Origin: Streptomyces sp. NBC_01549
GTDB taxonomy: Bacteria > Actinomycetota > Actinomycetes > Streptomycetales > Streptomycetaceae
Direction of reading: 5' to 3'
NCBI RefSeq assembly: GCF_026339955.1
Contig: NZ_JAPEPW010000002.1
Location: 124,001 to 188,000 of the forward strand
DNA: 64,000 nucleotides
A program made the translations under genes and the position numbers. This document shows positions 24,863 to 44,719 of the stretch, piece by piece. Within the stretch, counting starts at the first letter, position 1, and each line of letters opens with the position of its first letter. Under the pieces are notes generated by a model. The model made no database searches, had not been told where the DNA came from, and saw only the letters and a list, made by a program, of their open reading frames with translations.

Positions 24863-25239
24863 CTGGTCTGCCTCCTGGCTGACGCAACTGGGGCGGCTGA
24901 TCGCTGTGGAACCGCGCTCATCGTAACTCAGGCATCGGATGAGTCGTATTCATCGAGTAGGTAGATCCATGCCATAGAGCGGGGGCCCTAACTGGTGCAG
25001 ATGGCGATTTATTGGACACTTCCCGACTCGCATTGCACCACCACACGCAAATCACCGAGGAAGAAGGCTGCACAAACCCTTGACGGAACCTTCGATAGGG
25101 CGGCTAATTTCTTCCGCGACGGCAAGCGACACGGCCGTCTGCGGTCCCCGACGCCCGACCGGTTCGGCCCGGCGTCGCCCTGTCCTCGCGCCACCTGCCC
25201 GTCCGCTCGGGGCGCCCGGTGAAACCAGTGGAGTCGCAC
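24863..25239. promoter_or_regulatory. Divergent promoter region of GntR gene and sugar ABC operon
   Basis: 377 bases without a gene. TTGACG at 25080-25085 and TAATTT at 25105-25110 could be a sigma-70-type promoter for the operon, with a long 19-base spacer. GGATGA and TTCATC at about 24936-24953 form an inverted repeat that could be the GntR operator. Confidence 0.4.
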
Positions 25240-27512: not shown

Positions 27513-28470
27513 AACCCCTGTCAGTCGAGGCGCCGCCACGGCGAGCTCGGAACGGGAAGCGCCCCTCATGAGCCGATCTCACCACCAGCCGCCGCACCGC
27601 CGGCCCGTACGGCATGTGGCCTCACGACTGCTGACCGGATCCGTACTGGCCGCGTTCCTCGCCTTCTTCGTGCTGCCGGTGCTGTGGCTCGTCCTCGCGG
27701 CGACCAAGACCGACCAGCAGTTGGTCCACGACAACCCGCTGTCCTTCGGCTCCCTCCACGCGCTGAAGGCCAACTGGAACGCGCTCACGGCGTTCCAGGA
27801 CAACGCCGTCATGCAGTGGCTCGGCAACTCCGCGCTCTACGCGGTGATCTCGCTGGTCATCACCCTCGGTGTCGCCATTCCCGCGGGATACGCCCTGGCC
27901 ATGACCGAGTTCCGCGGCCGGCACAGCCTGCTGGTCGCGACGCTGGTTGTGATGCTCATGCCGAACGCCACACTGGTGGTGCCGTTGTTCCTGGAGATCA
28001 ACGCGGTGCACCTGATCGGCACGATGTGGTCGATCATCCTGCCGTACTCGTTCTACCCGTTCGGCGTGTACCTGACCTACATCTACTTCACCACAGCCGT
28101 ACCGAAGGACCTACTGGCGGCTGCACGGATGGACGGCTGCTCGGAGTTCCGCGTCTTCTGGCACATCGCGCTGCCGCTGGCGACCCCGGTCATCGCGCTC
28201 GTGGGCTTCTTCAGCTTCGTCGCCAACTGGACCAACTACTTCCTGCCGTACGTCATGCTCCCCGAGAGCAGCCAGATGCCCATCCAGGTGGGGGTCGGAA
28301 CCCTGCTCAGCAACGTGCCGTCCTTCAACCCGGCCGTCGGCACCCTCGCGATCGAGCGGCCGCAGCTGGCTCTGGCGACGCTCGTGGCCATCACGCCCGT
28401 GCTGATCGTCTTCCTCTTCGCCCAGCGCTTCCTGGTCAGCGGGATGCTCGCCGGCGCCACCAAGGAATAG
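27502..28470 (+). CDS. Sugar ABC transporter permease, MalG type
   Basis: A 322-residue permease with six membrane helices and the EAA-loop equivalent AAARMDGCSEFRVFWHIALP. ATG at 27502 overlaps the end of the first permease by 11 bases. An internal ATG at 27568 gives a shorter N-terminus and cannot be excluded. It pairs with the MalF-type permease to form the channel. Confidence 0.9.
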   Translation: MPTETPVSRGAATASSEREAPLMSRSHHQPPHRRPVRHVASRLLTGSVLAAFLAFFVLPVLWLVLAATKTDQQLVHDNPLSFGSLHALKANWNALTAFQDNAVMQWLGNSALYAVISLVITLGVAIPAGYALAMTEFRGRHSLLVATLVVMLMPNATLVVPLFLEINAVHLIGTMWSIILPYSFYPFGVYLTYIYFTTAVPKDLLAAARMDGCSEFRVFWHIALPLATPVIALVGFFSFVANWTNYFLPYVMLPESSQMPIQVGVGTLLSNVPSFNPAVGTLAIERPQLALATLVAITPVLIVFLFAQRFLVSGMLAGATKE

Positions 28471-28544: not shown

Positions 28545-30557
28545 ATGCCCTTCAGCTCTGCCGACCGCACCGCGGCCGAGGACACCCCCGGCGACCGCCC
28601 GGTCGCGCCACCTGAGATCGAGGCGGGGGCGCCGCTGCTCGAACCACCCGGCTGGGCCGTGGCCCAGCGATCCCTGTTCGACCTCCTCGACCACGCCTGG
28701 CGGCGCTTCGCCCACGACTTCACTGGTCCGGACGGACGGCTGAACTACTCCGGCCCGCTGACCACCCGTGACGGTGTGGACGACTTCTACGAGGTGTTCT
28801 TCAACTGGCCCCAGCTCTACCTCCTCGGCGGCGCCGACGATCTGCTGCCCGCCAGTGAGAAGCACTGGGAGGGCGTGACCCGACAGCTCACCGAACTGGG
28901 CATGCTGCACGACGAGTTCGAGCGCGGCTACGACTGGTTCCACCAGGGCGAGAGCCTGCTCCTGCTCTACTTCCTCAGCATGGCCGCCCCCGACCGCTGG
29001 GCCGAACGCGCCCTGCGCTTCGCCGAGTTGTACGTCGACCCGACCAAGGGCAACTACGACCCCGAGCACCGCGTCATCACCCGCCCGCACAACGGCAGCG
29101 ACCCCGACCGCACGGGCCTGTTCGACGGCGACGTCTATCCCTGGCTGCAGAAGGAAGCGGAGACCTACGGCTTCCCGCTCGACTGGATCCCCGAGGCCGA
29201 CGGCGGCCCCTACCCGCTCTCCGCGGACCCGCGCATCGGCGCGCAGATGCGGGACCGGATGGGCGTCGGCGACACGGCGGTCAACCTCGCCGCGGCCGGG
29301 CTGGTGCTCAACGCCTGGATACTGTCCGGCGAGGACCGCTACCGCGACTGGATCGTCGAGTACGTCGGCGCGTGGCGGGAGCGCACCGAGGCGAACGGCG
29401 GTCTCGTCCCGGACAACGCCGGCCCTGACGGCGTCGTCGGCAGCCTGCTGGAGGGCCGCTGGTACGGCGGCCACTACGGCTGGTCCTGGCCGCACGGCTG
29501 GCACAGCGTGGGCCACGCGGCCTGTGTGGCGGCGCTGGCGGCGGCCACGGTCACCGGGGACGACGACTACCTCTCCATGGTCGCGACCTCGCTCGACACC
29601 CTCATCGGCCACGCCAAGGTGATGCCCCACACCGAGGCGGACTCCAGTCTCCCCTCCAAGTGGGCGGTCGAACTCGGCCCCGACATCCACACACCCACTC
29701 CGCACCTGCCGTTCCGCCACAACGACTCGGGCTGGTTCGACTACAACCCGGCCACCCCGCCCGTGCCGGTGGCCCTGTGGCACCACACCGCCTCCGACGC
29801 CGACCGCGCCCGGCTGGAGAGGCTGCGCGAGGCCGACGGCATCGACTGGCGCACCGTCCGGCCCTTCCGCGCCAAAGAGGAGTCCGGGCACGAGAAGGCG
29901 TGGTTCGCCTTCCTCGCCGGCGAAGACCCCGGCTACCCCGAGCGGATCCTCGCCACCGCCCAGGCCCAGGTCCGCCACCGCCTGCGCCGCATCGAGCGCT
30001 ACCGCGACCTGGATGTCCCCGAGGCCGACATCCATGTGTGGCAGCAGTGCAACCCCGTGACCACCGAGGCCCTCGTCCAGCTCACCTGGGGCGGCCCCCA
30101 GGTGCTGTACAACGGCGGCCTTCAGCAGGCTCGGCTGCGCTACCACGACGCCGAGGCCCGCCGTGCCGGCCTGCCGCCGGACGTGGCCGCACTGGTCACC
30201 TCCATCGACCCCGAGGCGACCACCGTCGAGCTGGTGAACCTCTCCCCCGAGTCCACACGCACGGTGATCGTCCAGGCGGGCGCCTTCGCCGAGCACACCA
30301 TCACAGCCGTCCGGTACACGACCTGCACGGACGACGGCTGGATCGGGGACATGTACGACTACGGCCACACCGAGCCCGTCGTCACCACGTCGGAGCAGGC
30401 CTGCGACAGCGCCTTCTTGACGGTCCGGCTGCCCGCCTCCACCCGCGTCAAGCTCGCCTTGCGCCTCCAACTGCGTACCAACGCACCCAGCTACCGCACA
30501 CCGTTCGACACCTCGGCCGGCCGGGCCGCCTCCGGCACGGAGGGAGAGACCGCATGA
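28545..30557 (+). CDS. Unrecognised 670-residue cytoplasmic protein, probable alpha-helical-barrel glycosidase or lyase
   Basis: I do not recognise the family. There is no signal peptide. The middle (about 90-450) shows spaced helical segments rich in aromatic and acidic residues (FHQGESLLLLYFLSM, GDTAVNLAAAGLVLNAWIL, GWHSVGHAACVAALAAATV), as in six-hairpin (alpha/alpha) barrels of glycosidases and lyases. GGHYGWSWPHGW near 305-316 and WYGG before it are candidate active-site segments. The last 130 residues look like a beta-sandwich. It is 74 bases after the permease and overlaps the mutarotase start as ATGA, so it most likely acts on the imported saccharide and frees a sugar for the mutarotase. 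GGAG precedes the ATG at 28545. Confidence 0.7.
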   Translation: MPFSSADRTAAEDTPGDRPVAPPEIEAGAPLLEPPGWAVAQRSLFDLLDHAWRRFAHDFTGPDGRLNYSGPLTTRDGVDDFYEVFFNWPQLYLLGGADDLLPASEKHWEGVTRQLTELGMLHDEFERGYDWFHQGESLLLLYFLSMAAPDRWAERALRFAELYVDPTKGNYDPEHRVITRPHNGSDPDRTGLFDGDVYPWLQKEAETYGFPLDWIPEADGGPYPLSADPRIGAQMRDRMGVGDTAVNLAAAGLVLNAWILSGEDRYRDWIVEYVGAWRERTEANGGLVPDNAGPDGVVGSLLEGRWYGGHYGWSWPHGWHSVGHAACVAALAAATVTGDDDYLSMVATSLDTLIGHAKVMPHTEADSSLPSKWAVELGPDIHTPTPHLPFRHNDSGWFDYNPATPPVPVALWHHTASDADRARLERLREADGIDWRTVRPFRAKEESGHEKAWFAFLAGEDPGYPERILATAQAQVRHRLRRIERYRDLDVPEADIHVWQQCNPVTTEALVQLTWGGPQVLYNGGLQQARLRYHDAEARRAGLPPDVAALVTSIDPEATTVELVNLSPESTRTVIVQAGAFAEHTITAVRYTTCTDDGWIGDMYDYGHTEPVVTTSEQACDSAFLTVRLPASTRVKLALRLQLRTNAPSYRTPFDTSAGRAASGTEGETA

Positions 30558-30901
30558 AGCGCATCGCCCAGACCATCAGGCTCCGACCCGACCACCGCGA
30601 GGAGTACCTCGACCTCCACTCGGCCGTCTGGCCCGGCGTCGAAGCCGCCCTGCACCGGTCGAACATCCGCAACTACAGCATCTTCCTCCACGGCGATGTG
30701 CTGTTCGCCTACTTCGAGTACCACGGTGACGACTTCGAGGCCGACATGGCCGTCCTCGAAGCCGACCCCGATACCCAGGAGTGGTGGAAACTCACCGACC
30801 CCTGCCAGGAGCCCTGGCCCGACCGGGGCGACTCCCGCCAGTGGACGGAGCTCCCCGAGATCTGGCATCTGAGCCCGCCAGGTGACACCACCAGCGCCTG
30901 A
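30554..30901 (+). CDS. L-rhamnose mutarotase family protein
   Basis: A 115-residue protein of the RhaM family, which interconverts alpha and beta anomers of 6-deoxysugars. LHSAVWPGVEAAL near 21 holds the family's histidine, and the C-terminal half has WWKLTDPCQEPWP. It overlaps the upstream gene as ATGA. Rhamnose is the classic substrate, but the following gene is fuconolactonase-like, so L-fucose or a related sugar is possible. Confidence 0.88.
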   Translation: MKRIAQTIRLRPDHREEYLDLHSAVWPGVEAALHRSNIRNYSIFLHGDVLFAYFEYHGDDFEADMAVLEADPDTQEWWKLTDPCQEPWPDRGDSRQWTELPEIWHLSPPGDTTSA

Positions 30902-30962: not shown

Positions 30963-31874
30963 GTGACCCCCACCACCGCCGAACTCATCGACGCCCACCA
31001 CCACCTGTGGGACCTCGACCAGCGTCCGCAGCCCTGGCTCGACGACCCCGCTCTGGCAACGATCCGCCGCACCTTCACCCCCGACGACCTGCGTACCACC
31101 GCGACCCGGCCCATCGCGGGCCGCCGTCTGCACAGCACGGTGGCCGTGCAGTGCGTGCCGGACGTGCCCGAGACAGAGGACCTGCTCGCGCTCGCGGAGC
31201 GGGAGCCGCTGATCGGGGCCGTGGTCGGCTGGGCGGACCTGACGTCACCGGGGATCGGCGACCTGCTCGACGGGTTGCTCGCCGGGCCGGGCGGTACGTA
31301 TTTGCGGTCCCTGCGTCATCTCGTGCAGGGCGAGACAGATCCGCACTGGCTCCAACGCCCCGATGTCGAACGCGGGTTGGCGGCGCTCCGAGACCGCTGG
31401 CTCTGCTACGACGTGCTCGTCCGCAGCCACCAGCTCCACCAGGCGATCCGGCTGGCCGAGCGGTTTCCGGACCTGCCCCAGGTGCTCGACCACGCCGGCA
31501 AGCCATCGATCGCCGACGGTGAACTGACGGACTGGAAACGCCAGTTGCGCATGCTGGCCGCACACCCGCACGTGGTCTGCAAGGTGTCGGGGCTGATCAC
31601 CGAGGCGGACCACGAGAAGTGGACCGTCGACGACATCCGCCCGGTGTGGGACGTCCTGCTCTCCGCCTTCGGCCCCGACCGCCTGATGTTCGGCTCCGAC
31701 TGGCCGGTCGCAAACCTTGCGGGCGGCTGGAACCGCTGGGCCGCCACCGTGGACGGACTGCTCGACGGCTGTTCCGACACCGAGATCCACGCGGTGCTCG
31801 CCGGCACCGCGACCGCCTTCTACCGTCTCCCCTCCGTGTCAGAAGAAGCCGACGTCGCCGCGCGCAGCCTCTGA
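30963..31874 (+). CDS. Amidohydrolase-family lactonase, L-fuconolactonase-like (copy on plus strand)
   Basis: A 303-residue TIM-barrel lactonase of the COG3618 type, which opens sugar-acid lactones. Landmarks are IDAHHHLWDL near 9, LDHAGKPS near 178 and FGSDWPVANLAGGW near 243. It is colinear and highly similar to the lactonase at 38271 in the L-fucose operon (same [13 protein letters not shown] and KWTVDDIRP blocks). Start is GTG at 30963, 61 bases after the mutarotase. The remains of a fucU tail and an alcohol dehydrogenase follow, the same order as in the other operon. Confidence 0.9.
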   Translation: MTPTTAELIDAHHHLWDLDQRPQPWLDDPALATIRRTFTPDDLRTTATRPIAGRRLHSTVAVQCVPDVPETEDLLALAEREPLIGAVVGWADLTSPGIGDLLDGLLAGPGGTYLRSLRHLVQGETDPHWLQRPDVERGLAALRDRWLCYDVLVRSHQLHQAIRLAERFPDLPQVLDHAGKPSIADGELTDWKRQLRMLAAHPHVVCKVSGLITEADHEKWTVDDIRPVWDVLLSAFGPDRLMFGSDWPVANLAGGWNRWAATVDGLLDGCSDTEIHAVLAGTATAFYRLPSVSEEADVAARSL

Positions 31875-31945: not shown

Positions 31946-32236
31946 CTGCTGACCATTGGTGTCCGCGCTGAAGGGACCCTGACGACACGATGACTCTTGC
32001 CGTCCGTTACGTTTCCGCCCGCACACTGGACACGGCTCCCGCGCTCAGCGTGCCGCCCGGTCCGGGTGAGGTGGAGCTGGCTCCCGCGTTTGTCGGTATC
32101 TGCGGTACCGATCTGCACATCTTCCACGGTGACATGGACGCCCGGGTCGCCGCGCCCGCTGTCCTGGGGCATGAGATGTCCGGCCGTGTGGTGCGGGTGG
32201 GTGAGGGTGTGGAGGGCTGGCAGGCCGGTGACGCGG
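31946..32236 (+). repeat. 291-bp inverted repeat, left arm
   Basis: Identical to the reverse complement of 37600-37890 except for one base (A/T) by eye. It holds the last 14 codons of a fucU-type gene and the first 82 codons of the zinc alcohol dehydrogenase. Confidence 0.93.
31990..32236 (+). pseudogene. Truncated zinc-dependent alcohol dehydrogenase (N-terminal 82 codons)
   Basis: Starts MTLAVRYVSARTLDTAPALS and is identical in protein to the gene at 36773-37846 up to GWQAGDA, then runs into unrelated sequence. The catalytic-zinc motif GICGTDLH and the GHEMSG block are present, but the nucleotide-binding fold is lost. Upstream, TLTTR and a stop overlap the ATG exactly as in the intact locus. 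Confidence 0.92.
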
Positions 32237-32592: not shown

Positions 32593-33315
32593 TCACTTCG
32601 GCGCTGTCGTTCCGAAGGGAAGGGGTTCGCCGGAGCGCAGGTGTTGCCTCAGCCACTGCTCGGTGTTGCTCACATGCAGCAGTGCGGCAGCCTGGCTGAG
32701 GGCGGAGTCACGGGTGGACAGCGCGTTGAAGATCGCCTCGTGCTCGGCAAGGGTGCGGCCCGCGGCCTGGGTGTCGACCAGGCCGCGCCAGATACGGGCG
32801 CGCAGGGTGCGGCCGGAGATTCCTTCGAGGAGAGTGAGGAGGGTTTCGTTGCCCGTGGCCGAGATGACGGCACGGTGGAACGCGGCGTCGTGGGCGTTGA
32901 GCTCCCCGACGTCGTCGCGGGCCTCGCGCATTGCGTCCAGGTGCCGCTTCACCTCGGCCAGTTGGGCGTCGGAGATCCGGGTGGCGGCAAGGGCCGTGGC
33001 GATCGGTTCGAGGAGCCGCCGTACCTCCATGAGGTCCTGCAGGGCGACCGAGTCGCCCTGCAGGAGTTCCACCGCCCCGCCGAGCCCCTCCAGCAGCAGG
33101 CTCGGCTGGAGGCTGGTCACATACGTGCCGTCGCCCCGGCGGACTTCCAGGACCCGCGCGACGGCCAACGCCTTGACCGCTTCCCGAGCGAGGTTGCGGG
33201 ACAGCCCCAGCTGTGCGGCCAGGTCCGGCTCCGGCGGGAGCTTCGAGCCCGGAGGCAGGGCACCGGTCCGGATCAACTCACGGATCTGCTCGATGGCCTT
33301 GTCCGTCAGAGACAC
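32593..33315 (-). CDS. GntR-family (FadR/FCD) regulator at the end of the L-fucose operon
   Basis: A 240-residue repressor with an N-terminal winged helix (PDLAAQLGLSRNLAREAVKA) and an FCD effector domain with HDAAFHRAVI and LAEHEAIFNAL metal or ligand residues. FCD regulators often bind a sugar acid such as fuconate or a keto-deoxy acid. It is the last gene of the operon; its start overlaps the aldo/keto reductase stop by ten bases, so it is probably autoregulated. Not close to the GntR protein encoded at 24065. Confidence 0.9.
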   Translation of the reverse strand: MSLTDKAIEQIRELIRTGALPPGSKLPPEPDLAAQLGLSRNLAREAVKALAVARVLEVRRGDGTYVTSLQPSLLLEGLGGAVELLQGDSVALQDLMEVRRLLEPIATALAATRISDAQLAEVKRHLDAMREARDDVGELNAHDAAFHRAVISATGNETLLTLLEGISGRTLRARIWRGLVDTQAAGRTLAEHEAIFNALSTRDSALSQAAALLHVSNTEQWLRQHLRSGEPLPFGTTAPK

Positions 33316-34319
33316 CGCTCATCCCTCCCCCCACCGTGCCCCGTGAGCACGTCCGACCTGATCAGCCCCTGAGTGCGGAGAGCCTCCCAGAGGCCGTCCG
33401 GGATGTGCTGATCATGGAGTTTCACGTTTCGTCCGACCTGTTCCGGAGTCCGCATGCCCAGGGTGACGTTGATGATACTGGGATGCGTGTGCGGGAAGGC
33501 GATGGCGGCGGCGGGCAGGGTGGTGCCGTGTGCCTCGCAGACCTCGGCGATGGTCAGGGCTCTCGCGACGAGCTCCGGCGGGGCGTCCTGGTAGTCGTAC
33601 TTCATGCCCTGGGCGGGCCGGTCGAGGGAGAGCAGTCCCGAGTTGAACACGCCGACCGCGACGACGCTCTTGCCGAGGTCCTGGGCGGCGGGCAGGACGT
33701 CGTCCAGTGCCGACTGGTCCAGGAGTGTGTAGCGGCCGGCGAGCATCACCAGGTCGGCGGCGGTCTCGCGCAGGAAGCGGGTGAGCATGGCCGACTGGTT
33801 CATGCCGGCGCCGATCGCGCCGATCACGCCCTGGTCGCGCAGGTCCGCGAGCGTGGGCATGGCTTCCTCGGTGGCCTGCCGCCAGTGGTCGTCCGGATCA
33901 TGCAGGTAGACGATGTCGAGGCGGTCCAGGCCGGTGCGCTCCAGCGTGTCCTCGATGGAGCGGAGCACGCCGTCGCGGCTGAAGTCCCACTGCCGGCGCA
34001 GGTCGTCCCGTACGACGAAGCCCTCGGTGTCGACGCCGCGTGGCTCCTCGTTGGGCACCAGCAGCCTGCCCACCTTGGAGGAGATGACGTACTCGTCACG
34101 CGGACGTCCCCGCAGGGCGGCACCCAGACGGCACTCGGAGAGGCCGAGGCCGTAGTGCGGTGCGGTGTCGAAGTAGCGGATACCCGCATCCCAGGCCGTA
34201 TCGACGGCGGCGGTCGCGTCGTCGACCGGGGTGACGCGATACAGGTTGCCGATCACGGAGGCGCCGAAGCCGAGCTCGGTGAGCGCGACGGATGTGTCCT
34301 GGATCTTCTGCTGGTGCAA
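33306..34319 (-). CDS. Aldo/keto reductase, L-fucose (D-threo-aldose) dehydrogenase-like
   Basis: A 337-residue AKR. The catalytic tetrad is visible: Asp in YFDTAPHYG, Tyr in the same block, Lys in ISSKVGR, and His in VYLHDPDD. This subfamily includes D-threo-aldose 1-dehydrogenase, which oxidises L-fucose to L-fucono-1,5-lactone with NAD(P). Lactonase and fuconate dehydratase genes in the same operon support that role. A 35-base gap separates it from the kinase gene. Confidence 0.85.
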   Translation of the reverse strand: MHQQKIQDTSVALTELGFGASVIGNLYRVTPVDDATAAVDTAWDAGIRYFDTAPHYGLGLSECRLGAALRGRPRDEYVISSKVGRLLVPNEEPRGVDTEGFVVRDDLRRQWDFSRDGVLRSIEDTLERTGLDRLDIVYLHDPDDHWRQATEEAMPTLADLRDQGVIGAIGAGMNQSAMLTRFLRETAADLVMLAGRYTLLDQSALDDVLPAAQDLGKSVVAVGVFNSGLLSLDRPAQGMKYDYQDAPPELVARALTIAEVCEAHGTTLPAAAIAFPHTHPSIINVTLGMRTPEQVGRNVKLHDQHIPDGLWEALRTQGLIRSDVLTGHGGGRDERCL

Positions 34320-34354: not shown

Positions 34355-35392
34355 TCAGCGACTGACGTGGGCTGATCCGCCCGCGATGAGCGCCTCGACC
34401 TCGGCGAGCGAAGCCATGGAGACGTCGCCGGGCGTGGTCATGGTGAGCGCGCCGTGGGCGGTGCCGTAGGCCAGGGCGCGCTCCAGGCCGGTGTCGCTGA
34501 GCAGACCGTGGATCAGGCCGGCGGCGAAGGCGTCGCCGGAACCGATGCGGTCCAGAACCGGCAGGCCGGGCATCCGCGGGCCGGTGACGAAGCCGGTTTC
34601 GGCGGACCAGCCGGCCGAGGACCAGTCGTTGACCCCGGCCGAGGGCACCTCGCGCAGGGTCGTCGCCAGTACTTTCGCTTCGGGCAGCAGGCCGGCCACC
34701 TCGGCGAGCGCGTCCGCCACCTCGTCGGCCCCGATGCGCGCCTGACCCGGATACGTCCCGGCCAGACCGAGGGCACCCACCACGACGTCGGCCTGCCGGG
34801 CGAGCCGCAGGTCCGCCTCGCGGGCGGCGTCGGCGCCGCCCCGGCCGGCCCAGAGGCTGGGACGGTAATTGGGGTCGTAGGAGACCGTGATCCGATGGCG
34901 GCGCGCCGCGGCCATGGCCTCGTCCGCGACATCCAGCGTGGTGTCCGACAGGCCGGCGAAGATGCCGCCGGTGTGGAACCAGCGCACCCCGGCGGAGAAC
35001 ACGGCGTCCCAGTCGACGTCCCCTTTGCGCAGCTGGGAGACGGCGGTGTGGGCGCGGTCGCTGACACCGAGGGCACCGCGGATGCCGTAGCCGCGTTCGA
35101 CGAAGTTCAGCCCGTTGCGGGCGGTACGGCCGATCCCGTCGTCGGGCACCCAGCGGATCAGCGAGGTGCCGACGCCGCCCTGGAGGATCAGGTCCTCGAC
35201 GAGCCGGCCCACCGCATTGTCGGCCAACGCGGTCACGACGGCTACCCGCCGGCCGAAGCAGCGTCGCAGTCCGCGGACGACGTTGTACTCGCCGCCGCCC
35301 TCCCAGACCTGGAAGGAGCGGGCGGTTCGGATCCGTCCCTCGCCCGGATCGAAGCGCAGCATCACCTCGCCGAGGGCCACCACGTCGATCAC
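34355..35392 (-). CDS. PfkB-family sugar kinase, 2-keto-3-deoxygluconate kinase-like
   Basis: A 345-residue ribokinase-fold kinase. The first signature reads WEGGGEYNVVRGLRR and the second DRIGSGDAFAAGLIHGL, whose Asp is the catalytic base. VALGEVMLRFDP at the N-terminus is typical of KdgK. It should phosphorylate a 2-keto-3-deoxy sugar acid at C6. GTG at 35392 overlaps the aldolase stop. The canonical reaction needs a 6-hydroxyl, which 2-keto-3-deoxy-L-fuconate lacks, so its true substrate here is open. Confidence 0.88.
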   Translation of the reverse strand: MIDVVALGEVMLRFDPGEGRIRTARSFQVWEGGGEYNVVRGLRRCFGRRVAVVTALADNAVGRLVEDLILQGGVGTSLIRWVPDDGIGRTARNGLNFVERGYGIRGALGVSDRAHTAVSQLRKGDVDWDAVFSAGVRWFHTGGIFAGLSDTTLDVADEAMAAARRHRITVSYDPNYRPSLWAGRGGADAAREADLRLARQADVVVGALGLAGTYPGQARIGADEVADALAEVAGLLPEAKVLATTLREVPSAGVNDWSSAGWSAETGFVTGPRMPGLPVLDRIGSGDAFAAGLIHGLLSDTGLERALAYGTAHGALTMTTPGDVSMASLAEVEALIAGGSAHVSR

Positions 35393-36018
35393 GTCATGCT
35401 CCTCTCGACGGCCTCGGCGGTCAGCCGGCGGATGTCCTCGTAGTCGCCGCGCTCCAGGTGGGCGGCGGTGGCCATCCAGCTGCCGCCGACGGCGAGGACC
35501 GCCGGGTCGGCGAGGTAGGCGGCCAGGCGGGAAGCGTCGATCCCGCCGGTCGGTACGAAGCGCGTCCGGGGGAAGGGGGCCGCGAGCGCTCGCAGCGTCC
35601 GCAACCCGCCGAGCGGCTCGGCGGGGAAGAGCTTGACGGTGTCGATGCCGGTCCGCAGGGCACGCATCAGCTCTGTCGCGGTGGCGATGCCGGGCACCAC
35701 AGGCACCCCCAGCTCCCGGCACTTCGCGACGACCTCCTCGTCGAAACCGGGCGAGACCACGAAGCGGGCCCCGACCGCCACGGCCCGCTCCGTCTGCTCG
35801 GGCGTGAGTACCGTGCCGGCGCCGACGGCCAAGCCACCGTGGGCGGCCATCTCCTTGAGCACCCGCTCGGCGCCCGGGGTACGGAAGGTGACCTCGGCGC
35901 ACCGGGCACCGCCCGCCGCGAGGGCGTCGGCCAGTGGGCCGGCCATCGCGGTGGACGGCACGGTCAGCACCGGAAGGAGACGGCAGCCGTTCAGCACGGA
36001 GTCGAAGCCGGCGGTCAT
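35389..36018 (-). CDS. KDPG/KHG-type aldolase
   Basis: A 209-residue class I aldolase. EVTFRTPGAERVL carries the Glu base, and KLFPAEPLGG the Schiff-base Lys (in TVKLFPAE near 142); GGSWM is typical of the C-terminal end. It cleaves a 2-keto-3-deoxy sugar acid, usually the 6-phosphate, to pyruvate and an aldehyde. The ATG at 36018 overlaps the dehydrogenase stop as ATGA. Enzymes of this fold vary in need for phosphate. Confidence 0.9.
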   Translation of the reverse strand: MTAGFDSVLNGCRLLPVLTVPSTAMAGPLADALAAGGARCAEVTFRTPGAERVLKEMAAHGGLAVGAGTVLTPEQTERAVAVGARFVVSPGFDEEVVAKCRELGVPVVPGIATATELMRALRTGIDTVKLFPAEPLGGLRTLRALAAPFPRTRFVPTGGIDASRLAAYLADPAVLAVGGSWMATAAHLERGDYEDIRRLTAEAVERSMT

Positions 36019-36776
36019 CGGCCGAGCCATCCGCCGTCGACGGGCAGGACGACGCCGTGGACGTATGCGGCGGCGTCGGAGGCGAGGAACACGGTGGCGC
36101 CCGCCAGGTCGTCGGCGTTGCCCCAGCGTCCGGCGGGGATGCGGTCCAGGATCGCCTTGCTGCGGACCGGGTCGTCCTGGAGGGCCTGGGTGTTGTCGGT
36201 GGCGATGTAGCCGGGCGCGAGGGCGTTGACGTTGACGCCGTGTGGCGCCCATTCGTTGGCCAGGGCCTTGGTCAGTCCGGCGATGCCGTGCTTGGCGGCG
36301 GTGTAGCCGGGGACGGTGATGCCGCCTTGAAAGCTGAGCAGCGACGCCGTGAAGATGATCTTCCCCTGGCCGCGGGCCACCATCGACGTGCCGACCGCCC
36401 GGCTCAGCGCGAACTGCGCGGTGAGGTTGACCTGGAGCACCAACGCCCAGTCCGCGTCGGTGTGTTCGGCGGCCGGAGCGCGGCGGATGGTGCCCGCGTT
36501 GTTGATGAGGATGTCCACCGGCCGCTGGCGCCCGGCCAGGTCGACGCCCAGGGCCCGTACGGCTTCGGGGTCGGCGAAGTCGGTGCGGATCGCCTCGAAG
36601 GAACGCCCCGCGGCGAGGACGTCCTTCTCCACCGCGCTGCCGGATGCCTCCAGGCCGGCGCTGACGCCGATGACGTCCGCGCCGGCCTCGGCGAGCGCGA
36701 GGGCCATGGCCCGGCCGATGCCACGCCGGGCACCGGTGACGACGGCGAGCTTCCCGGTGAGATCGAAGGAGGTCAT
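36015..36776 (-). CDS. Short-chain dehydrogenase, KduD-like / keto-deoxy-fuconate dehydrogenase candidate
   Basis: A 253-residue SDR with cofactor motif TGARRGIG, NNAG, and the Ser-Tyr-Lys triad in ASLLSFQGG and PGYTAAKHG. NVNALAPGYIATDNT and GRWGNADDLAG closely fit KduD, 2-dehydro-3-deoxy-D-gluconate 5-dehydrogenase. Known 2-keto-3-deoxy-L-fuconate 4-dehydrogenases are also SDRs, and the operon favours that reading. ATGA overlaps on both sides show tight coupling. Confidence 0.88.
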   Translation of the reverse strand: MTSFDLTGKLAVVTGARRGIGRAMALALAEAGADVIGVSAGLEASGSAVEKDVLAAGRSFEAIRTDFADPEAVRALGVDLAGRQRPVDILINNAGTIRRAPAAEHTDADWALVLQVNLTAQFALSRAVGTSMVARGQGKIIFTASLLSFQGGITVPGYTAAKHGIAGLTKALANEWAPHGVNVNALAPGYIATDNTQALQDDPVRSKAILDRIPAGRWGNADDLAGATVFLASDAAAYVHGVVLPVDGGWLGR

Positions 36777-37846
36777 ACGGCCACTCCCTGAGCGTCGTCG
36801 GTGTTGTCGGTGTCGGTGTCGGTGTCGGTGGTGCAGTCCACGAGGATCTTCATCACGTCACCGCCGCCCTCCAGGGCCTCGAACGCGGCGGGCGCCTGTG
36901 TGAGCGGCACGACCTTGCTGATCAGCCGCTCGACCGGAATCGTGCCGTCCGCGACGAGTGTCACCGCCTTCTCGAAGTCGGGGCGGTCGTACAACCGGGC
37001 CCCGACCAGGGTGAGTTCGCGCCAGAAGAAGCGGTGCAGGTTCACCTCGCGAGGCCGGGGGTGGATGGCGACCAGACAAAACCGGCCCCGCACCCCCAGC
37101 ACGTCGACCGCGGTCTCCACGCCGCCCGCCGCGCCGGACACCTCGAAGGCAACATCCGCGCCCGCCTCCCCGGTCCACTGCCGCACCAGCTCCGGCACGT
37201 CGTCGTCAACCGGGTTCCACGCCGTCAGCCCCAGCTCCTCGGCGAGCAGCCGGCGGTGGGCGCTCAGCTCCACCACCCTGACCTCGGCCCCCGTGGCCCG
37301 CGCGACCAGTGCGATGAGGATGCCGACCGGGCCGCCGCCGACCACCACGACCTTCTCACCCTCACGCACGGCGGCCCGGCCCACGTCGTGCACGGCGACC
37401 GCCGTCGGCTCGACGAGCGCGGCTCGGTCCAGGGGAAGGGTGTCGGGCAGCCGGATGAGAGTGGCGGCAGGCACCGTCCAGCGCTGCTGCATCGCGCCCG
37501 GGGAGTCGATGCCGATGAAGTCCAGGTGCTGGCAGATGTGCTGATGGCCCATCAGGCACGCTGGGCAGGTGTCGTCCCAGCGCAGCGGCATCACCGTGAC
37601 CGCGTCACCGGCCTGCCAGCCCTCCACACCCTCACCCACCCGCACCACACGGCCGGACATCTCATGCCCCAGGACAGCGGGCGCGGCGACCCGGGCGTCC
37701 ATGTCACCGTGGAAGATGTGCAGATCGGTACCGCAGATACCGACAAACGCGGGAGCCAGCTCCACCTCACCCGGACCGGGCGGCACGCTGAGCGCGGGAG
37801 CCGTGTCCAGAGTGCGGGCGGAAACGTAACGGACGGCAAGAGTCAT
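36773..37846 (-). CDS. Zinc-dependent medium-chain alcohol dehydrogenase
   Basis: A 357-residue MDR of the sorbitol/threonine dehydrogenase class. Catalytic zinc ligands are Cys38 in GICGTDLH and His61-Glu62. The structural zinc lobe has Asp91 in place of the first Cys, followed by Cys94, Cys97 and Cys105 (DDTCPACLMGHQHIC). The cofactor motif is VVGGGPVG. It ends in an odd acidic tail encoded by a short tandem repeat. It may oxidise L-fucose or a pathway intermediate, overlapping with the AKR. Its first 247 bases are duplicated at 31990. Confidence 0.9.
   Translation of the reverse strand: MTLAVRYVSARTLDTAPALSVPPGPGEVELAPAFVGICGTDLHIFHGDMDARVAAPAVLGHEMSGRVVRVGEGVEGWQAGDAVTVMPLRWDDTCPACLMGHQHICQHLDFIGIDSPGAMQQRWTVPAATLIRLPDTLPLDRAALVEPTAVAVHDVGRAAVREGEKVVVVGGGPVGILIALVARATGAEVRVVELSAHRRLLAEELGLTAWNPVDDDVPELVRQWTGEAGADVAFEVSGAAGGVETAVDVLGVRGRFCLVAIHPRPREVNLHRFFWRELTLVGARLYDRPDFEKAVTLVADGTIPVERLISKVVPLTQAPAAFEALEGGGDVMKILVDCTTDTDTDTDNTDDAQGVAV
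36805..36830. repeat. GTCGGT microsatellite in the alcohol dehydrogenase 3' end
   Basis: About four tandem copies of a six-base unit encode alternating Asp-Thr (TDTDTDTDN) just before the C-terminus. Slippage would lengthen or shorten the tail by two residues without a frameshift. Confidence 0.8.
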
Positions 37847-37890
37847 CGTGTCGTCAGGGTCCCTTCAGCGCGGACACCAATGGTCAGCAG
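37600..37890 (-). repeat. 291-bp inverted repeat, right arm
   Basis: Partner of 31946-32236. It covers the last 14 codons of fucU and the start of the intact alcohol dehydrogenase. The arms bound a 5.4-kb segment. Confidence 0.93.
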
Positions 37891-38280
37891 CAGGTTGGCG
37901 TAGGTACGGGTGTCGGCCGTGACGATCGCCAGCGCCAGGTCCGGCGAGCGGGCAGCGTCGTAGAACTCGAAGCGGCCGAGCGTGTCGACCGGGACGGGTG
38001 CCAGCTTCGAGCGGTACTCGGCGATGGCCGGCGGCTCCGGTTCGCCCTCGGGCGGCACCATCACGTGGGCTGCCTCGACGGGCAGGGCGCGCAACAGGAC
38101 GTCGAGCACGGTGGTGACGTCGAGCAGACCGGGGGCCAGGTTGAGGTGCACGGTCCTGGCGCGCTCGCCGGTGGCGGTGCTCGCGGGGTAGTGGCCGTCG
38201 GCGAGCAGGACGCGGGCGCCGTGGCCCGCTCCGGCCAGGGATTCGAGGATCCCGGGGTGCAGCAGTTCCGTCAGGAGCAC
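37843..38280 (-). CDS. fucU: RbsD/FucU-family L-fucose mutarotase
   Basis: A 145-residue mutarotase of the FucU/RbsD fold, with ILESLAGAGHGARVLLADGHYPA near the N-terminus, ARTVHLNLAPGL in the middle and RFEFYDAAR near the active-site Tyr. It speeds the change between L-fucose anomers before oxidation. GTG at 38280 has AGGGGA upstream and lies inside the lactonase end; its stop overlaps the dehydrogenase ATG. A longer frame upstream is the lactonase in another frame. Confidence 0.88.
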   Translation of the reverse strand: MLLTELLHPGILESLAGAGHGARVLLADGHYPASTATGERARTVHLNLAPGLLDVTTVLDVLLRALPVEAAHVMVPPEGEPEPPAIAEYRSKLAPVPVDTLGRFEFYDAARSPDLALAIVTADTRTYANLLLTIGVRAEGTLTTR

Positions 38281-39173
38281 AGTGTCCCCTCCTTCGTCGG
38301 GGCAGGGGTCAGGTGGTAGAAGGCGGTCGCGGTGCCGGCGAGGACCGCGTGGATCTCGGGGCCGGAGCAGCCGTCCAGGAGTTCCTCGACGGTGGCGGCC
38401 CAGCGGTTCCATCCGCCGGCGAGGACGCAGACCGGCCAGTCGGAGCCGAACATCAGCCGCTCGGGGCCGAAAGCGGAGAGCAGGACGTCCCAGGCCGGGC
38501 GGATGTCGTCGACGGTCCACCTCTCGTGGTCGGCCTCCGTGACCAGGCCCGACACCTTGCAGCGGACCTGGGCATGGCTGGCCAGGTCCCCCACCTGTCG
38601 TGCCCAGTCGGTCAGTTGTCGCCGTGCGAGGGGCGGCTTGCCCGCATGGTCCAGGACGAGCGGCAGCTCCGGGAGCCGCTCCGCGAGACGAATCGCCTGC
38701 GAGAGCTGGTGGCTGCGGATCAGCACGTCATATCCGAGTCCGCGCTCTCCGACCGCTCGCAACCCGCGCTCGACATCCGGTCGTTGGAGCCAGTGCGGGT
38801 CCGACTCGCCCTGCACGATGTGGCGTACGGCCCTCAGGTACCGGCCGGCGGACCCTGTCCGCAGATCGTCGAGGACGTCGCCGATCGCGGGGGATGTCAG
38901 GTCCGCCCAGCCGACGACCGCGCCGATCAGCGGGTCGCTGTCGGCCAGAGCGAGGAGGTCGCGGGTCTCGGGCACGGACGTGACGCACTGAACGACCACC
39001 GTGCTCGTCAGCCGCCGTCCGGCGATCGGCCGGGTCGCGGCCGAGCGCAGAGCGAGCGAGCTGAAGCTGCGGCGGATCGGCTCATGGCCGGGTTCGTCCA
39101 GCCAGGGCTGCGGCCGCAGGTCCAGGTCCCAGACGTGGTGGTGGGCGTCGATGAGGGCCTGGACGTCAGACAC
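38271..39173 (-). CDS. L-fuconolactonase (amidohydrolase family)
   Basis: A 300-residue COG3618 lactonase that hydrolyses L-fucono-lactone to L-fuconate. Metal-site and barrel motifs are [10 protein letters not shown] near 8, [11 protein letters not shown] near 176 and [14 protein letters not shown] near 239. It overlaps the fuconate dehydratase end by eight bases and fucU by ten, fitting the step between dehydrogenase and dehydratase. The plus-strand copy at 30963 is a close paralogue. Confidence 0.92.
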
Positions 39174-40491
39174 GGGCGGTCCAGACGGGGCCGTCGGGGT
39201 ATGTGTACTCCTTGAGGGATTCGGGGTGCATCTGCGCGCTCAGCCCCGGCAGCGTCGGCGCCAGGTAGTGGCCGTCGACGATGCGCACCGGGTCGACGAA
39301 GTGCTCGTGCAGGTGGTCGACGTACTCGATGACGCGGTCCTCAGTTGTACCGGAGACGGCGACGTAGTCGAACATCGACAGGTGCTGGACCATCTCGCAC
39401 AGGCCGACGCCGCCGGCGTGCGGGCAGACGGGGACGCCGAACTTCGCGGCGAGCAGCAGGATCGCGATGTTCTCATTGACGCCGCCGACCCGTGCGGAGT
39501 CGATCTGCACGATGTCCACCGCGCCGGCCTGGAGGAGCTGCTTGAAGACGACCCGGTTGGCGATGTGCTCGCCGGTGGCGACCTTGATGGGGTGGACGGC
39601 CTTGCGCACGGTGGCGTGGCCGAGGATGTCGTCGGGTGAGGTGGGCTCCTCGATCCAGTACGGCTGGTAGGGGGCCAGGGCGCGCATCCAGTCGATGGCG
39701 GGCTGCACGTCCCATCTCTGGTTGGCGTCGACGGCGATGCGGATGTCGTCGCCGACCGTCTCGCGGGCGGTGCGCATGCGGCGTACGTCGTCCTCCAGGT
39801 CTGCGCCGACCTTCAGCTTGATCTGCGTGAAGCCGTCGGCGACCGCCTCGCGGGCCAGGCGGGACAGCTTCTCGTCGGAGTAGCCGAGCCAGCCGGGGGT
39901 GGTCGTGTAGGCGGGGTAGCCCTGGTCGAGCAGCCGGCCGATGCGGTGCTCGCGGCCGGGTGCGGCGCGGCGCAGGATGTCCAGCGCCGCCTCGGGGGTG
40001 AGGGCATCGCTGAGCCAGCGGAAGTCGACCTGGGCGACCAGCTCCTCCGGCGACATCTCGCCGAGGAACCGCCACACCGGCTTGCCCGCGCGCTTGGCGG
40101 CCAGGTCCCAGGCGGCGTTGACGACCGCGCCGGTCGCCATGTGGATGGCGCCCTTCTCCGGCCCCAGCCAGCGCAGTTGGGGGTCGTGGACCAAGGAGCG
40201 GGAGAAGGCGCCGAGGTCGGAGCAGACCTCCTCGACGGACAGGCCGACCACGTGCGGGGCGAGGGCCGCGATGGCGGCGGCCTGGACGTCGTTGCCGCGT
40301 CCGGTGGTGAAGGCGAGGGCGTGGCCCTCCAGTCCGTCGCCGGCGTCGGTGCGCAGGACGACATAGGCGGCGGAGTAGTCAGGTTCGGGGTTCATCGCGT
40401 CCGACCCGTCCAGGTGCTCGGACGTCGGGAAACGTACGTCGAGGACGTCCAGGGCGGCGATGCGGGCGGATGCGGGCACGGCGGAGGACAT
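39166..40491 (-). CDS. L-fuconate dehydratase (enolase superfamily)
   Basis: A 441-residue dehydratase turning L-fuconate into 2-keto-3-deoxy-L-fuconate. Family signatures include [18 protein letters not shown] near 17, [20 protein letters not shown], the base Lys in [11 protein letters not shown], metal ligands in VDANQ and WIEEPT, and the His of [15 protein letters not shown]. Length equals that of characterised FucD. The ATG at 40491 has GGAG eight bases before it; the open frame upstream lacks homology. This gene is the strongest pointer to L-fucose as the operon's sugar. Confidence 0.95.
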
Positions 40492-40586: not shown

Positions 40587-41630
40587 TCACTCCTGGACCT
40601 TGCCGCCCGTGATGCGCGAGATGGCGAGGGCGACCAGGATGATCAGGCCGTTGAGGGCGCCGATCCACTGGGCGGGGACACCGCCCAGGGTGAGCACGTT
40701 CTGGATCATGAAGAGCAACAGGATGCCGCAGAACGCCCCGAACATGGTGCCCTTGCCGCCGTTGAGGCTGATCCCACCGATGACGGCGGCGGCGAACACG
40801 GTGAAGATGTAGCCGTTACCCTGCGCGGAGGCGACGGAGGCCAGCCGTCCGGAGAGCAGCAGTCCGGCGAGGGCGGCGAGCACGCTGCCGGTGACGATGA
40901 CGATCCACAGCACTCGGTCGGTGCGGATGCCGGCCGCCTTCGCGGCGTCGACGTTGCCGCCGATGGCGTACAGCGAGCGGCCGAAGCTGGTCCAACCGAG
41001 CACCACGATCGCGACGGCGAAGAGCACCAGGCAGATCCAGATGGACGCTGGCATCCCGAACCATTCGGCGGTGCCCAGGTAGAGCATCGACTCGGGCAGC
41101 TGGAAGAAGGTCTGGCCACCGGAGATGCCCGTGAGGACACCGCGCAGCACGATCAGCATGCCAAGGGTGACGATGAAGCCGTTGAGGCCGAAGCGGATGA
41201 TCAGCAGGGAGTTGACCACGCCGACCAGCGCGCCCACGGCGAGCGTGACGGGAATCGACCAGGCGCCTGGCAGCAGCCCTAGACCGTGTCCCGCGCCGGT
41301 CGGCACCACCAGCCAGGCCGCGACACCGGGCGCGAGGCCCATGGTGGACTCAAGGGACAGGTCCATCTTCTTGACGATCAGAATCATCGCCTGGGCGAGG
41401 ACCAGCAGAGCCATCTCGGACATGGTCTGCAGGACGTTGATGAGATTGTCGGCCTGCAGGAAGACCGGGTTGACGATCTGGCCGACGATCGCGATGACCA
41501 CGATCGCCGGGACGAGCGCGAGGTCGCGCAGCCGGGCCAGGGGTATCCGGCCGCCGAGCAGCGCGATCCGCTTCGCCGCCGGTTCCGTTTCCGTGGGGGC
41601 GGCGGTGTCCGCGAGGACGGTTTCAGGCAT
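40587..41630 (-). CDS. Sugar ABC transporter permease, RbsC type
   Basis: A 347-residue membrane protein with about eight to ten helices and the BPD_transp_2 signature [18 protein letters not shown] and [12 protein letters not shown]. It forms the channel of a monosaccharide importer with the ATPase and binding protein encoded next to it. Its start overlaps the ATPase stop by eight bases. Confidence 0.93.
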
Positions 41631-43185
41631 TGAGGGCCACTCCTTCCATCGCGGCCACGAGGTCGTGGTCGTGCCAGCCGCGGGCGATCTCTGAGGTCAC
41701 ACGGCCCTGGAACATCACCAGGACCCGGTCGCACATGCGCAGATCGTCGAGTTCGTCGGAGGCGATGAGCACTCCGGTGCCGGTCCGCGCGGTCTCCTCG
41801 ACCTTGCCGAGGAGGAACTCCTTGGAGCGCACGTCCACGCCCGCGGTCGGGTTGATCAGGACCAGCAGTCGGGGGTCGTCGGCCAGGGCGCGGGCCATGA
41901 CGACCTTCTGCTGGTTGCCTCCGGACAGGGCGGAGACGGGCAGGTCGGGCCCGGGGGTCTTGATCGCCAGGTTCTCGATCATGCGCCCGGCGAGCCGGTC
42001 CCGGCGGCTGCGGCTCAGGAACCCGTTCGAGCCAAGGCGTTTCGGTACGGACAGTGTGGCGTTGTCCGCGATGGACATGTCGGGAACGAAGCCCTGGTGG
42101 TGCCGGTCCTGCGGGACGAACCCGGCGCCGGAGGCGAGCGCCGCGGGCACGCTGCCCGGCCGGGGCCGGTTCCCGGCGATCTGCACCTCGCCCGCCGCTG
42201 CCGCCCGTAGCCCTACGACGGTCTCGGCGACCTCGGTGCGCCCGCTGCCGGCGGCGCCCGCGAGGCCGACGATCTCGCCGGCCCCGACCTGGAAACTGAC
42301 GTCGTCGTACGCGTCGCCTCGCAGAGCATGGACGCTCAGTGCGGCCGTGGCGTCAGGAGTGAGGGTGCTCGCCCGCTCCCCTTGCCGGTCGGCCGCCGCC
42401 TCACCGGTCATCGCGGCGACCAGATCGGCGCGAGGAAGTTCCGCCACTGGCGCCGTGATGATGTGCCGGGCGTCGCGGAAGACCGTCACCATGTCGCAGA
42501 TCTCGTAGACCTCCTGGAGATGGTGACTGATGAACAGAAACGTCACGCCCTGGCGTTGCAGGTCACGGATGCGGTCGAAGAGGCGGTTGATGGCGGCCCC
42601 GTCGAGCTGGGCCGTCGGCTCGTCGAGGATGATGAACCGGGCGCCGAAGGACAGCGCGCGGGCGATCTCGACGAACTGCCGCTGTTCGACGCTCAGTTCG
42701 CCTGCGGGGGTGTGGGGGTCGACGTCCACCGACCAGGTCGCCAGCAGTTCCTGGGCGCGGCGACGGGTGGCCTGCCAGCTGATGAGCCGGCTGCGTCCGT
42801 GGTCGTGCCGGTGCAGGAAGAGGTTCTCGGCGACGGTCAGCGCGGGGATGATCGTGGACTTCTGGTAGACGCAGGCCACGCGTTGCCGCCAGGCGTCCCG
42901 GTCGGCGGGGCGGGGGGCGGGCTCGCCGCCGAAGGTGACCGTTCCCTCGTCGGGGGCCTGAAGGCCGGTGAGGACCGACACCAGAGTCGACTTGCCGGCT
43001 CCGTTGCGGCCGACGAGCGCGTGGGTCTCGCCGGGCCTGATGGTGATCCGGGCGCCGTTCAGGGCAACCGTCGGACCGAATCGTTTGACCATGCCCGTCG
43101 CCTCGACGACGGGCGGGTCGGAGGGGACCCGTCCGTCGTCCGCCGGGACGGGCTCGGGGGTGACTGCTCGCTCCCCGTCGCTCAT
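41623..43185 (-). CDS. Sugar ABC transporter ATPase, RbsA type (two ATPase domains)
   Basis: A 520-residue fused double ATPase. Domain 1 has Walker A GRNGAGKST and Walker B FIILDEPTAQLD. Domain 2 is degenerate at Walker A (GAAGSGRTE) and has INPTAGVD at Walker B, with an LSGGNQQK signature, the normal asymmetry of this family. Domain 1 has LSVEQRQ as its signature. It powers import of the operon's monosaccharide, most likely L-fucose. Confidence 0.94.
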   Translation of the reverse strand: MSDGERAVTPEPVPADDGRVPSDPPVVEATGMVKRFGPTVALNGARITIRPGETHALVGRNGAGKSTLVSVLTGLQAPDEGTVTFGGEPAPRPADRDAWRQRVACVYQKSTIIPALTVAENLFLHRHDHGRSRLISWQATRRRAQELLATWSVDVDPHTPAGELSVEQRQFVEIARALSFGARFIILDEPTAQLDGAAINRLFDRIRDLQRQGVTFLFISHHLQEVYEICDMVTVFRDARHIITAPVAELPRADLVAAMTGEAAADRQGERASTLTPDATAALSVHALRGDAYDDVSFQVGAGEIVGLAGAAGSGRTEVAETVVGLRAAAAGEVQIAGNRPRPGSVPAALASGAGFVPQDRHHQGFVPDMSIADNATLSVPKRLGSNGFLSRSRRDRLAGRMIENLAIKTPGPDLPVSALSGGNQQKVVMARALADDPRLLVLINPTAGVDVRSKEFLLGKVEETARTGTGVLIASDELDDLRMCDRVLVMFQGRVTSEIARGWHDHDLVAAMEGVALNA

Positions 43186-44295: not shown

Positions 44296-44370
44296 CGATG
44301 CTTCCTCGCGCTGGTCCCGTAGCGGGAGATGTTTCGCCTCGACGGCATCCACGTGTCGCCGCGCAGTAGA

Positions 44371-44651
44371 GATGGGATGTTTATAGAGCGGCTTCCGACG
44401 AGCTGTCCAGCCCTCTGTACAAAATCGCAGCGAAAGAGGCCGGTTCACCGGTGTCCACGCGGAGAGGTGACAGCCCTCCAGGGGAGATCCATCCCATCAA
44501 TCGTCGACATCTGATGGCTCGCGTTGACCGTGAAGCACTGCAAGACATGCCATGTTTACGGGATCACAATACGCACTAAGTTAAGGCAAATAAGGCTAAT
44601 CACCCTACGACGTGGTCACTTTCATCCCTGCACGCTGGTTGACATCCCATG
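44371..44651. promoter_or_regulatory. Divergent promoter region with four ACATCCCATGT-type sites
   Basis: Sites are GATGGGATGT at 44371-44380, CATCCCAT at 44490-44497, ACATGCCATGT at 44545-44555 and ACATCCCATG at 44642-44651. The region separates the L-fucose operon from the GH29 gene, so a single regulator could control both directions. The outer two lie close to the likely transcription starts. Confidence 0.65.
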
Positions 44652-44719
44652 GCGACATGGCCGACCTTCATGCGGGGCCCTGCATTCCCCCTGTCCCCTT
44701 CCGCATCAGGGATGTGTCC

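Follow-up and report, generated by a model that had tools for sequence, protein, structure and literature searches.

A candidate operon for L-galactose catabolism in Streptomyces that joins a fucose-type upper half to an agar-sugar-type lower half

The window analysed here is a stretch of 64,000 nucleotides from Streptomyces sp. NBC_01549 (contig NZ_JAPEPW010000002.1, positions 124,001 to 188,000), whose genome comprises 12.6 Mb in 15 contigs, and our subject is a minus-strand operon within it in which a kinase and an aldolase of the 2-keto-3-deoxygluconate (KDG) type accompany an L-fuconate dehydratase (FucD). The operon extends from a sugar-binding protein gene at 43231-44448 down to a GntR regulator gene at 32593-33315. 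It begins with an apparent sugar ABC transporter, namely the binding protein (start codon uncertain), an ATPase (41623-43185) and a permease (40587-41630), which were assigned to their open reading frames (ORFs) by inspection and recur beside FucD genes of the group designated clade A below. These are followed by FucD itself (39166-40491), a clade A member that matches the Xanthomonas campestris L-fuconate dehydratase 2HNE at E 1.7e-208 and is predicted to be an L-fuconate/L-galactonate dehydratase; an amidohydrolase of the L-fucono/L-galactono-lactonase type (38271-39173; PF04909, with 188.5 bits to the fuconolactonase model NF052480, below its cut-off of 400); a FucU/RbsD-family mutarotase (37843-38280; PF05025, 91.6 bits); a zinc-dependent medium-chain dehydrogenase/reductase (MDR; 36773-37846; PF08240/PF00107); a KduD-like short-chain dehydrogenase/reductase (SDR; 36015-36776); an EDA-type aldolase for 2-keto-3-deoxy-6-phosphogluconate (KDPG) (35389-36018; PF01081, 201.0 bits against a cut-off of 27.8, and TIGR01182, 221 bits against 156.05); a KdgK-like kinase of the PfkB family with a GTG start codon (34355-35392; PF00294, 70.2 bits against 25.8); and an aldo/keto reductase (AKR; 33306-34319; PF00248), before the GntR/FCD regulator (PF07729, PF00392). 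Adjacent ORFs overlap by 4 nt at the kinase/aldolase, aldolase/SDR, SDR/MDR and MDR/FucU junctions, as in translationally coupled operons.

A preliminary description of the locus, made from the DNA letters, had placed an SDR, a KdgK-like kinase and an EDA-type aldolase in one operon with FucD and without a FAH-family hydrolase. Both statements were borne out, the former by ORF calls and family scans and the latter by a genome-wide search, in which all seven FAH (PF01557) matches fell outside the window. The three listed genes are real, although the list was incomplete without the MDR and the AKR and did not recognise the SDR as KduD-like.

Among known families the operon SDR appears nearest to KduD, with 327.9 bits to TIGR01832 (slightly under the cut-off of 338.85) and 207.8 bits to the best non-KduD family; its identity is 49% with Escherichia coli KduD, 52% with an SDR from an agar-degradation cluster discussed below and 33% with the SDR found at the genome's second FucD locus. 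The MDR is 37% identical to its agar-cluster counterpart and 32% to E. coli LgoD, and Cys38, His61, Glu62, Cys94 and Cys97, which we take to have zinc roles, are kept in 108 of 108 sequences. The best solved relative of the kinase is the Thermotoga maritima KDG kinase 2AFB (E 8.8e-36), and its GSGD motif is found in 69 of 69 sequences. It is the only match of its genome at E<=1e-15, with a 33% identical relative at another locus (L202). The latter (G000:C11:354000-365000 in our numbering of genomes and contigs) contains enolase-family, aldolase, kinase and GntR genes and by inspection resembles a D-galactonate pathway cluster. FucD retains Lys225, Lys227, Asp255, Glu281, Glu282, Glu308 and His358, presumably catalytic, in 63 of 63 sequences, the signature residues of the SDR are likewise largely conserved, and all five PDB sequences matched by the AKR at E<=1e-15 are named L-galactose dehydrogenase. 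The aldolase, one of three EDA-family matches in the genome, aligns with 1EUA at E 1.7e-45, and the counterparts of E. coli E45, R49, T73, K133, T161 and G162 are present in 68 of 68 sequences, G163 in 67 and S184 in 66. These positions presumably comprise the Schiff-base residue Lys133, Glu45 and the phosphate pocket, and the preservation of that pocket favours a phosphorylated substrate and disfavours direct cleavage of an unphosphorylated acid.

The distribution of these genes was examined in 297 genomes of the family (Streptomycetaceae), 175 of which match FucD at E<=1e-40. Among the matches listed, those of at least 70% identity form two bands, one at 89-95% (clade A; 16 loci in 15 other genomes) and one at 70-76%; the second FucD of the genome itself (locus L038), which is 72% identical to the window FucD, falls in the latter. 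All 16 clade A loci were compared with 19 of the other band (18 plus the genome's own copy). An MDR is present at 12 of the 16 clade A loci, the complete set of MDR, SDR, EDA and KdgK at eight, a partial module at four and no module at four, and no FAH gene adjoins FucD at any of the 16. Around the 19 other-band genes, MDR, EDA and KdgK are all absent, another SDR occurs at 18 loci and an adjacent FAH gene at ten; the locus without this SDR, L057, also lacks FAH and lies on a shorter stretch. The best PDB relative of the operonic FAH is the L-2,4-diketo-3-deoxyrhamnonate hydrolase 8GSR (E 3.3e-75), with 334 bits to NF053535 (cut-off 500). Because the other-band loci lack the module and carry another SDR and, in ten of 19 cases, this diketo-acid-hydrolase-like FAH, L-fucose probably has its own gene set consisting of the other FucD, the other SDR and FAH. 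The preliminary description had allowed for a FAH hydrolase elsewhere in the genome, and FAH genes do exist outside the window. One of them (L001) was considered as an orthologue of the operonic FAH, a view weakened by three genomes (G107, G009 and G210) that each carry an operonic FAH (76-78% identical to the query) together with a L001-like FAH (68%), for which reason L001 is probably a separate paralogue.

The context of the MDR was also surveyed. In the same 297 genomes 63 match it at E<=1e-40, many being distant relatives, and it was additionally sought as an alignment in named genomes, the best 80 of the loci listed being used. Of the 124 loci whose MDR is 200 aa or longer, 10 were set aside as duplicate records, leaving 114, and a further 12 for their short flanks, leaving 102 contexts; four loci without MDR (L040, L051, L052 and L053) stand outside this count, and three (L048, L079 and L081) retain the kinase only in fragments. 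An SDR lies within 2 kb of the MDR in 100 of the 102 contexts. EDA and KdgK occur together in 66, are both missing in 32 and are found singly in four. By type, 57 contexts belong to clade A FucD (48 with EDA and KdgK), 37 to a protein termed GHx that is described below (17 with both) and eight to neither (one with both). In a separate tally of 113 loci, 101 of them well flanked, a GH29 gene of at least 70% identity was found within 12 kb of the MDR in 40 of the 57 FucD contexts. Since the set of kinase, aldolase and SDR recurs in many actinobacterial loci, it is not a chance assemblage.

A comparable lower half is known from agar-degrading bacteria, where the enzymology that underlies the assignments is said to be that of Lee et al. 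2014. In agar degraders, an MDR (EC 1.1.1.389), KduD (EC 1.1.1.127), KdgK and EDA have been assigned by homology to the conversion of 2-keto-3-deoxy-L-galactonate (L-KDGal) to KDPG (PMC5943477, PMC10163077), and for Vibrio the entry of KDGal into central metabolism is believed to follow a different path (PMC5943477). Within Streptomyces, the agarase carbohydrate-binding module PF17992 was detected in one of 392 sampled genomes (G602, predicted to be agarolytic), whose locus L189 contains homologues of the window's EDA (40%), KdgK (31%), SDR (52%) and MDR (37%) and an enolase-family gene in a row. A 361-aa cycloisomerase lies approximately 4.5 kb from the EDA-KdgK-SDR-MDR row, the other labels at this locus having been given by inspection; its length and C-terminus agree with those of SCO3480 as deduced from published primers (PMC9706016), the N-terminus differing by one residue, and SCO3480 has been reported to make KDGal. 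At another locus (L092), an MDR and an SDR 65% and 68% identical to those of the window occur with an enolase-family protein 70% identical to the L189 cycloisomerase. L092 also has an apparent major facilitator superfamily transporter, by inspection. In the window, no anhydrogalactonate cycloisomerase is available in the operon as a source of L-KDGal, its enolase-family gene being FucD, which is 34% identical to the agar-cluster cycloisomerase over 220 residues. The likeness to the 3,6-anhydro-L-galactose pathway of the P. atlantica type would reside in the MDR, KduD-like SDR, KDG kinase and KDPG aldolase, four families that follow an L-KDGal-forming enzyme there and share one operon here; the difference is that L-KDGal in the window would arise via an aldose dehydrogenase, lactonase, mutarotase and FucD, whereas the agar system uses an anhydrogalactose dehydrogenase and the cycloisomerase.

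L-KDGal is 2-keto-3-deoxy-L-fuconate with an additional 6-hydroxyl and the same configuration at C4 and C5. L-galactose itself, which is fucose bearing one more hydroxyl, occurs in small amounts in plant cell walls and in certain animal galactans. From the observed families, operon structure, linkage and conserved residues we infer every substrate, the order of the steps and L-galactose as the sugar. We consider it reasonably probable that this is a catabolic operon for L-galactose, with an upper half that probably also admits L-fucose and a lower half that proceeds via L-KDGal, KDG and KDPG. The AKR, as a proposed L-galactose/L-fucose 1-dehydrogenase, would oxidise the aldose, after which the lactonase would open the lactone and FucD would dehydrate the aldonate. 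Acting on L-fuconate, FucD would produce 2-keto-3-deoxy-L-fuconate, to be diverted into a 4-dehydrogenase/FAH route whose genes lie elsewhere; acting on L-galactonate, it would produce L-KDGal, in which the 6-hydroxyl is retained. The MDR, a candidate 2-keto-3-deoxy-L-galactonate 5-dehydrogenase, would oxidise L-KDGal at C5 to a 2,5-diketo acid, and the KduD-like SDR, a candidate 2,5-diketo-3-deoxygluconate 5-reductase, would re-reduce it in the opposite configuration to D-KDG. The kinase, as a 2-keto-3-deoxygluconate 6-kinase, would then phosphorylate the 6-hydroxyl of KDG, and the aldolase would split the resulting KDPG into pyruvate and D-glyceraldehyde-3-phosphate.

The preliminary description had pointed out that KdgK acts on a 6-hydroxyl that a 6-deoxy acid lacks, and its view that 2-keto-3-deoxy-L-fuconate poorly explains the kinase and the aldolase is upheld. 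With an SDR nearest to KduD and a zinc dehydrogenase encoded directly upstream, this paradox would be removed, and the most likely substrate of the kinase is KDG formed from L-galactose by C5 epimerisation, not the 6-deoxy acid. A second sugar was one of the three solutions offered at that stage and proves the best of them, although galacturonate, the example given, is unlikely and L-galactose fits better. The expectation that any of the three would be a new branch overlooked the route from L-KDGal to KDG in agar degraders; the individual parts are known, and what may be new is the combination of a fucose-type upper half, including FucD, with an agar-sugar lower half. No report of FucD feeding an MDR-KduD-KdgK-EDA route was found in the literature searched, which left out most subscription papers. 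Residual activity of X. campestris FucD on L-galactonate has been described (PMC13406643). If the proposal is correct, it predicts an L-galactose route for many Streptomyces and some other actinobacteria, gives testable functions to genes labelled by family only, including GHx, which has no family match, and provides a rule for operons of this kind, in which the 6-hydroxyl sets the branch and an MDR plus KduD beside FucD signals L-galactose.

Several observations weigh against this reading. Reported FucD and FucX enzymes favour L-fucose substrates, and Campylobacter jejuni shows no growth gain from L-galactose (PMC13406643, PMC6946681). The gene adjacent to the operon, divergent on the plus strand at 44612-46951 (start codon uncertain), encodes a GH29 alpha-L-fucosidase with ricin-type lectin domains (PF01120, 296.9 bits, and PF14200, scanned from 44687) and points to L-fucose; because of this neighbour and of the four of 16 clade A loci that have FucD and the transporter without the module, the ancestral operon may have been one for fucose. 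KdgK and EDA are both absent from the 32 MDR contexts mentioned above, and the contexts come mostly from related Streptomyces and are not independent trials. The identity margin by which the MDR is nearer to the agar MDR than to LgoD is narrow, the SDR and the lactonase score under curated cut-offs, and the kinase is only remotely related to E. coli KdgK, at 26% identity along part of the sequence, with all its NCBIfam matches under their cut-offs. No AKR named L-fucose dehydrogenase is among the PDB matches, so these cannot separate L-galactose from L-fucose. As to the separate fucose set, the 4-dehydrogenase label of the other SDR is putative, its relatives including DHRS6/BDH2 (2AG5); the two sets are not strictly separate, as the other FucD has the module for a neighbour at L163 and L078 and lies within 20 kb of it at L100; and L038 has no adjacent FAH, the gene most similar to the operonic FAH (69%) being approximately 2.6 Mb away.

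The same genes can also be read in other ways. The order of the steps might differ, with the MDR, like LgoD, converting L-galactonate into D-tagaturonate by oxidation at C5, the SDR reducing this to D-altronate and FucD dehydrating the latter to KDG before KdgK and EDA act. LgoD is a dehydrogenase of the family to which the window MDR belongs (32% identity), in Halomonas the L-galactonate genes lgoD, uxaA and either uxaB or uxaF are found together with L-fuconate genes (PMC5507952), and residual activity of X. campestris FucD on D-altronate has been described (PMC13406643). We nevertheless regard this order as unlikely, given that the SDR is nearest to KduD, that the MDR is slightly closer to the agar MDR than to LgoD, that UxaA and UxaB are missing among the operon genes (they were not searched genome-wide), and that the MDR-SDR homologues at L189 and L092 are accompanied by a cycloisomerase or a relative of it, an enzyme expected to form L-KDGal. 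On the side of fucose, the aldolase could, as the preliminary description had suggested, split unphosphorylated 2-keto-3-deoxy-L-fuconate into pyruvate and L-lactaldehyde, the remaining genes being accessory; the fucosidase adjoins the operon, and aldol cleavage of this acid by the aldolase FucH is known as route 1 (PMC11199699). This appears quite improbable for an EDA-family enzyme with intact phosphate-pocket residues: the kinase, MDR and KduD would be left without a task, EDA and the kinase mostly occur or are missing together in the 102 contexts, and the nine operon proteins that were scanned include no aldehyde dehydrogenase.

A role for the kinase, aldolase and KduD in the use of galacturonate, or of the unsaturated uronates that pectin yields, is very unlikely. 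KduD, KdgK and EDA do form the lower pectin route, the rest of the window looks, by inspection, like a plant-cell-wall enzyme island, and the genome has no second good KduD, its only other TIGR01832 match at E<=1e-60 being a KduD-like SDR of 290.6 bits, under the cut-off. However, a search for UxaC that was positive in seven of 14 genomes used as controls gave no match in this genome, both matches of the KduI family (PF04962) lie in apparent inositol clusters and were taken from their neighbours, by inspection, to be IolB, and the MDR would have no role in such a route, yet accompanies the SDR almost invariably. Least credible of all is phosphorylation of another hydroxyl of the 6-deoxy acid, also raised in the preliminary description, which would create a phosphorylated fucose branch; the kinase and aldolase do recur beside FucD in 48 of the 57 contexts, but no precedent was found in the literature examined, the MDR and KduD would be unexplained, and a simpler account exists.

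The proposed L-galactose route may be compared with further known systems. It shares the aldose dehydrogenase, lactonase, FucU and FucD with route 3 of the non-phosphorylating L-fucose pathway of the X. campestris type (PMC11199699, PMC6336799), but the window operon lacks FAH and has a KduD-like SDR, the other SDR being at L038 and a FAH gene elsewhere on contig C12. In the L-galactose pathways via D-tagaturonate and D-altronate (Luteolibacter, P. vulgatus and E. coli L-galactonate), C5 is likewise epimerised by two dehydrogenases, and in Luteolibacter KDG, KDG kinase and KDPG aldolase follow; epimerisation there precedes the dehydration of D-altronate, whereas FucD and KduD in the window suggest that dehydration comes first (PMC12632266). 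The Halomonas L-fuconate/L-galactonate loci also have fucose-type and L-galacto-type catabolism side by side, but their galacto branch uses lgoD, uxaA and either uxaB or uxaF (PMC5507952).

Convergent with the operon, on the plus strand, lies a second set of genes, comprising an ABC transporter (25219-28470; the binding protein at 25219-26601 matches PF01547, the permeases were assigned by inspection), GHx (28545-30557, approximately 670 aa, family unassigned, without a Pfam or NCBIfam match when scanned from 28539), a RhaM-type mutarotase (30554-30901; PF05336, 107.3 bits, scanned from 30560) and a second lactonase (30963-31874; PF04909, and NF052480 with 207.4 bits against 400), a paralogue of the one at 38271-39173. 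In other genomes these genes form a second operon type, headed by GHx, in which the ABC transporter, GHx, RhaM and lactonase are followed by MDR and SDR and then by EDA, KdgK and AKR, by FAH and the other SDR, or by both. At five loci (L074, L075, L076, L077 and L084) MDR-SDR is followed by EDA-KdgK as well as by FAH and the other SDR. That either end module can occupy this position fits a KDG-like product usable by both. Outside the Streptomycetaceae, MDR-SDR is accompanied in Kineococcus (L181 and L182) by FAH and the other SDR, and in Amnibacterium (L185) by these two together with weak EDA and KdgK relatives. A relative of GHx 46% identical to that of the window was the only other one in a phylum sample of 346 genomes, and lies (L194) near FucD, AKR and lactonase genes. 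GHx was dropped as a clue to the sugar: its AlphaFold model, from 14 sequences, is poor (mean predicted local distance difference test score 55.0), Foldseek found nothing at E<=0.001 and ranked GH76 and GH127 glycosidases first among its weak matches, and no substrate was read from it.

The kinase-aldolase module is bounded by a 291-nt inverted repeat with one mismatch, whose arms lie at 31946-32236 (plus strand; the end of FucU and approximately 82 MDR codons) and at 37600-37890 (minus strand; within FucU and MDR). When the segment between them is flipped in silico, the MDR protein is unchanged and the module is placed behind the GHx operon, which rebuilds the second operon type. One may ask whether the lower module, made up of MDR, SDR, aldolase, kinase and AKR together with the regulator, can invert as a cassette. 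In the orientation of the window it would be expressed behind FucD and the fucosidase, and in the opposite one behind the convergent ABC-GHx-RhaM-lactonase operon, where other genomes have the module. If so, a cell could plug one L-galactose module into either of two sugar-uptake operons. We consider such a switch unlikely, and it is weakened by Streptomyces sp. Ag109_O5-1 (L110), which has the convergent layout of the window without the repeated MDR fragment.

In five genomes with both operon types (L049/L076, L041/L080, L043/L081, L048/L075 and L045/L074), DNA identity between the two MDR copies is 94.4-100%, those of L049 and L076 being the same, and all 40 between-genome pairs of these copies fall below these values, at 78.7-94.0%. 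That copies within a genome are closer than any between genomes suggests gene conversion. One genome (G105) has a stretch of 1840 bp that is 99.9% identical between the two operon types.

Two further resemblances were seen within the window. The paralogous lactonase genes are inverted relative to each other, with an 841-nt match of 79% identity between 30984-31824 and 38315-39155, and the protein encoded at 2901-4883 resembles, by inspection, the GH29 fucosidase of 44612-46951.

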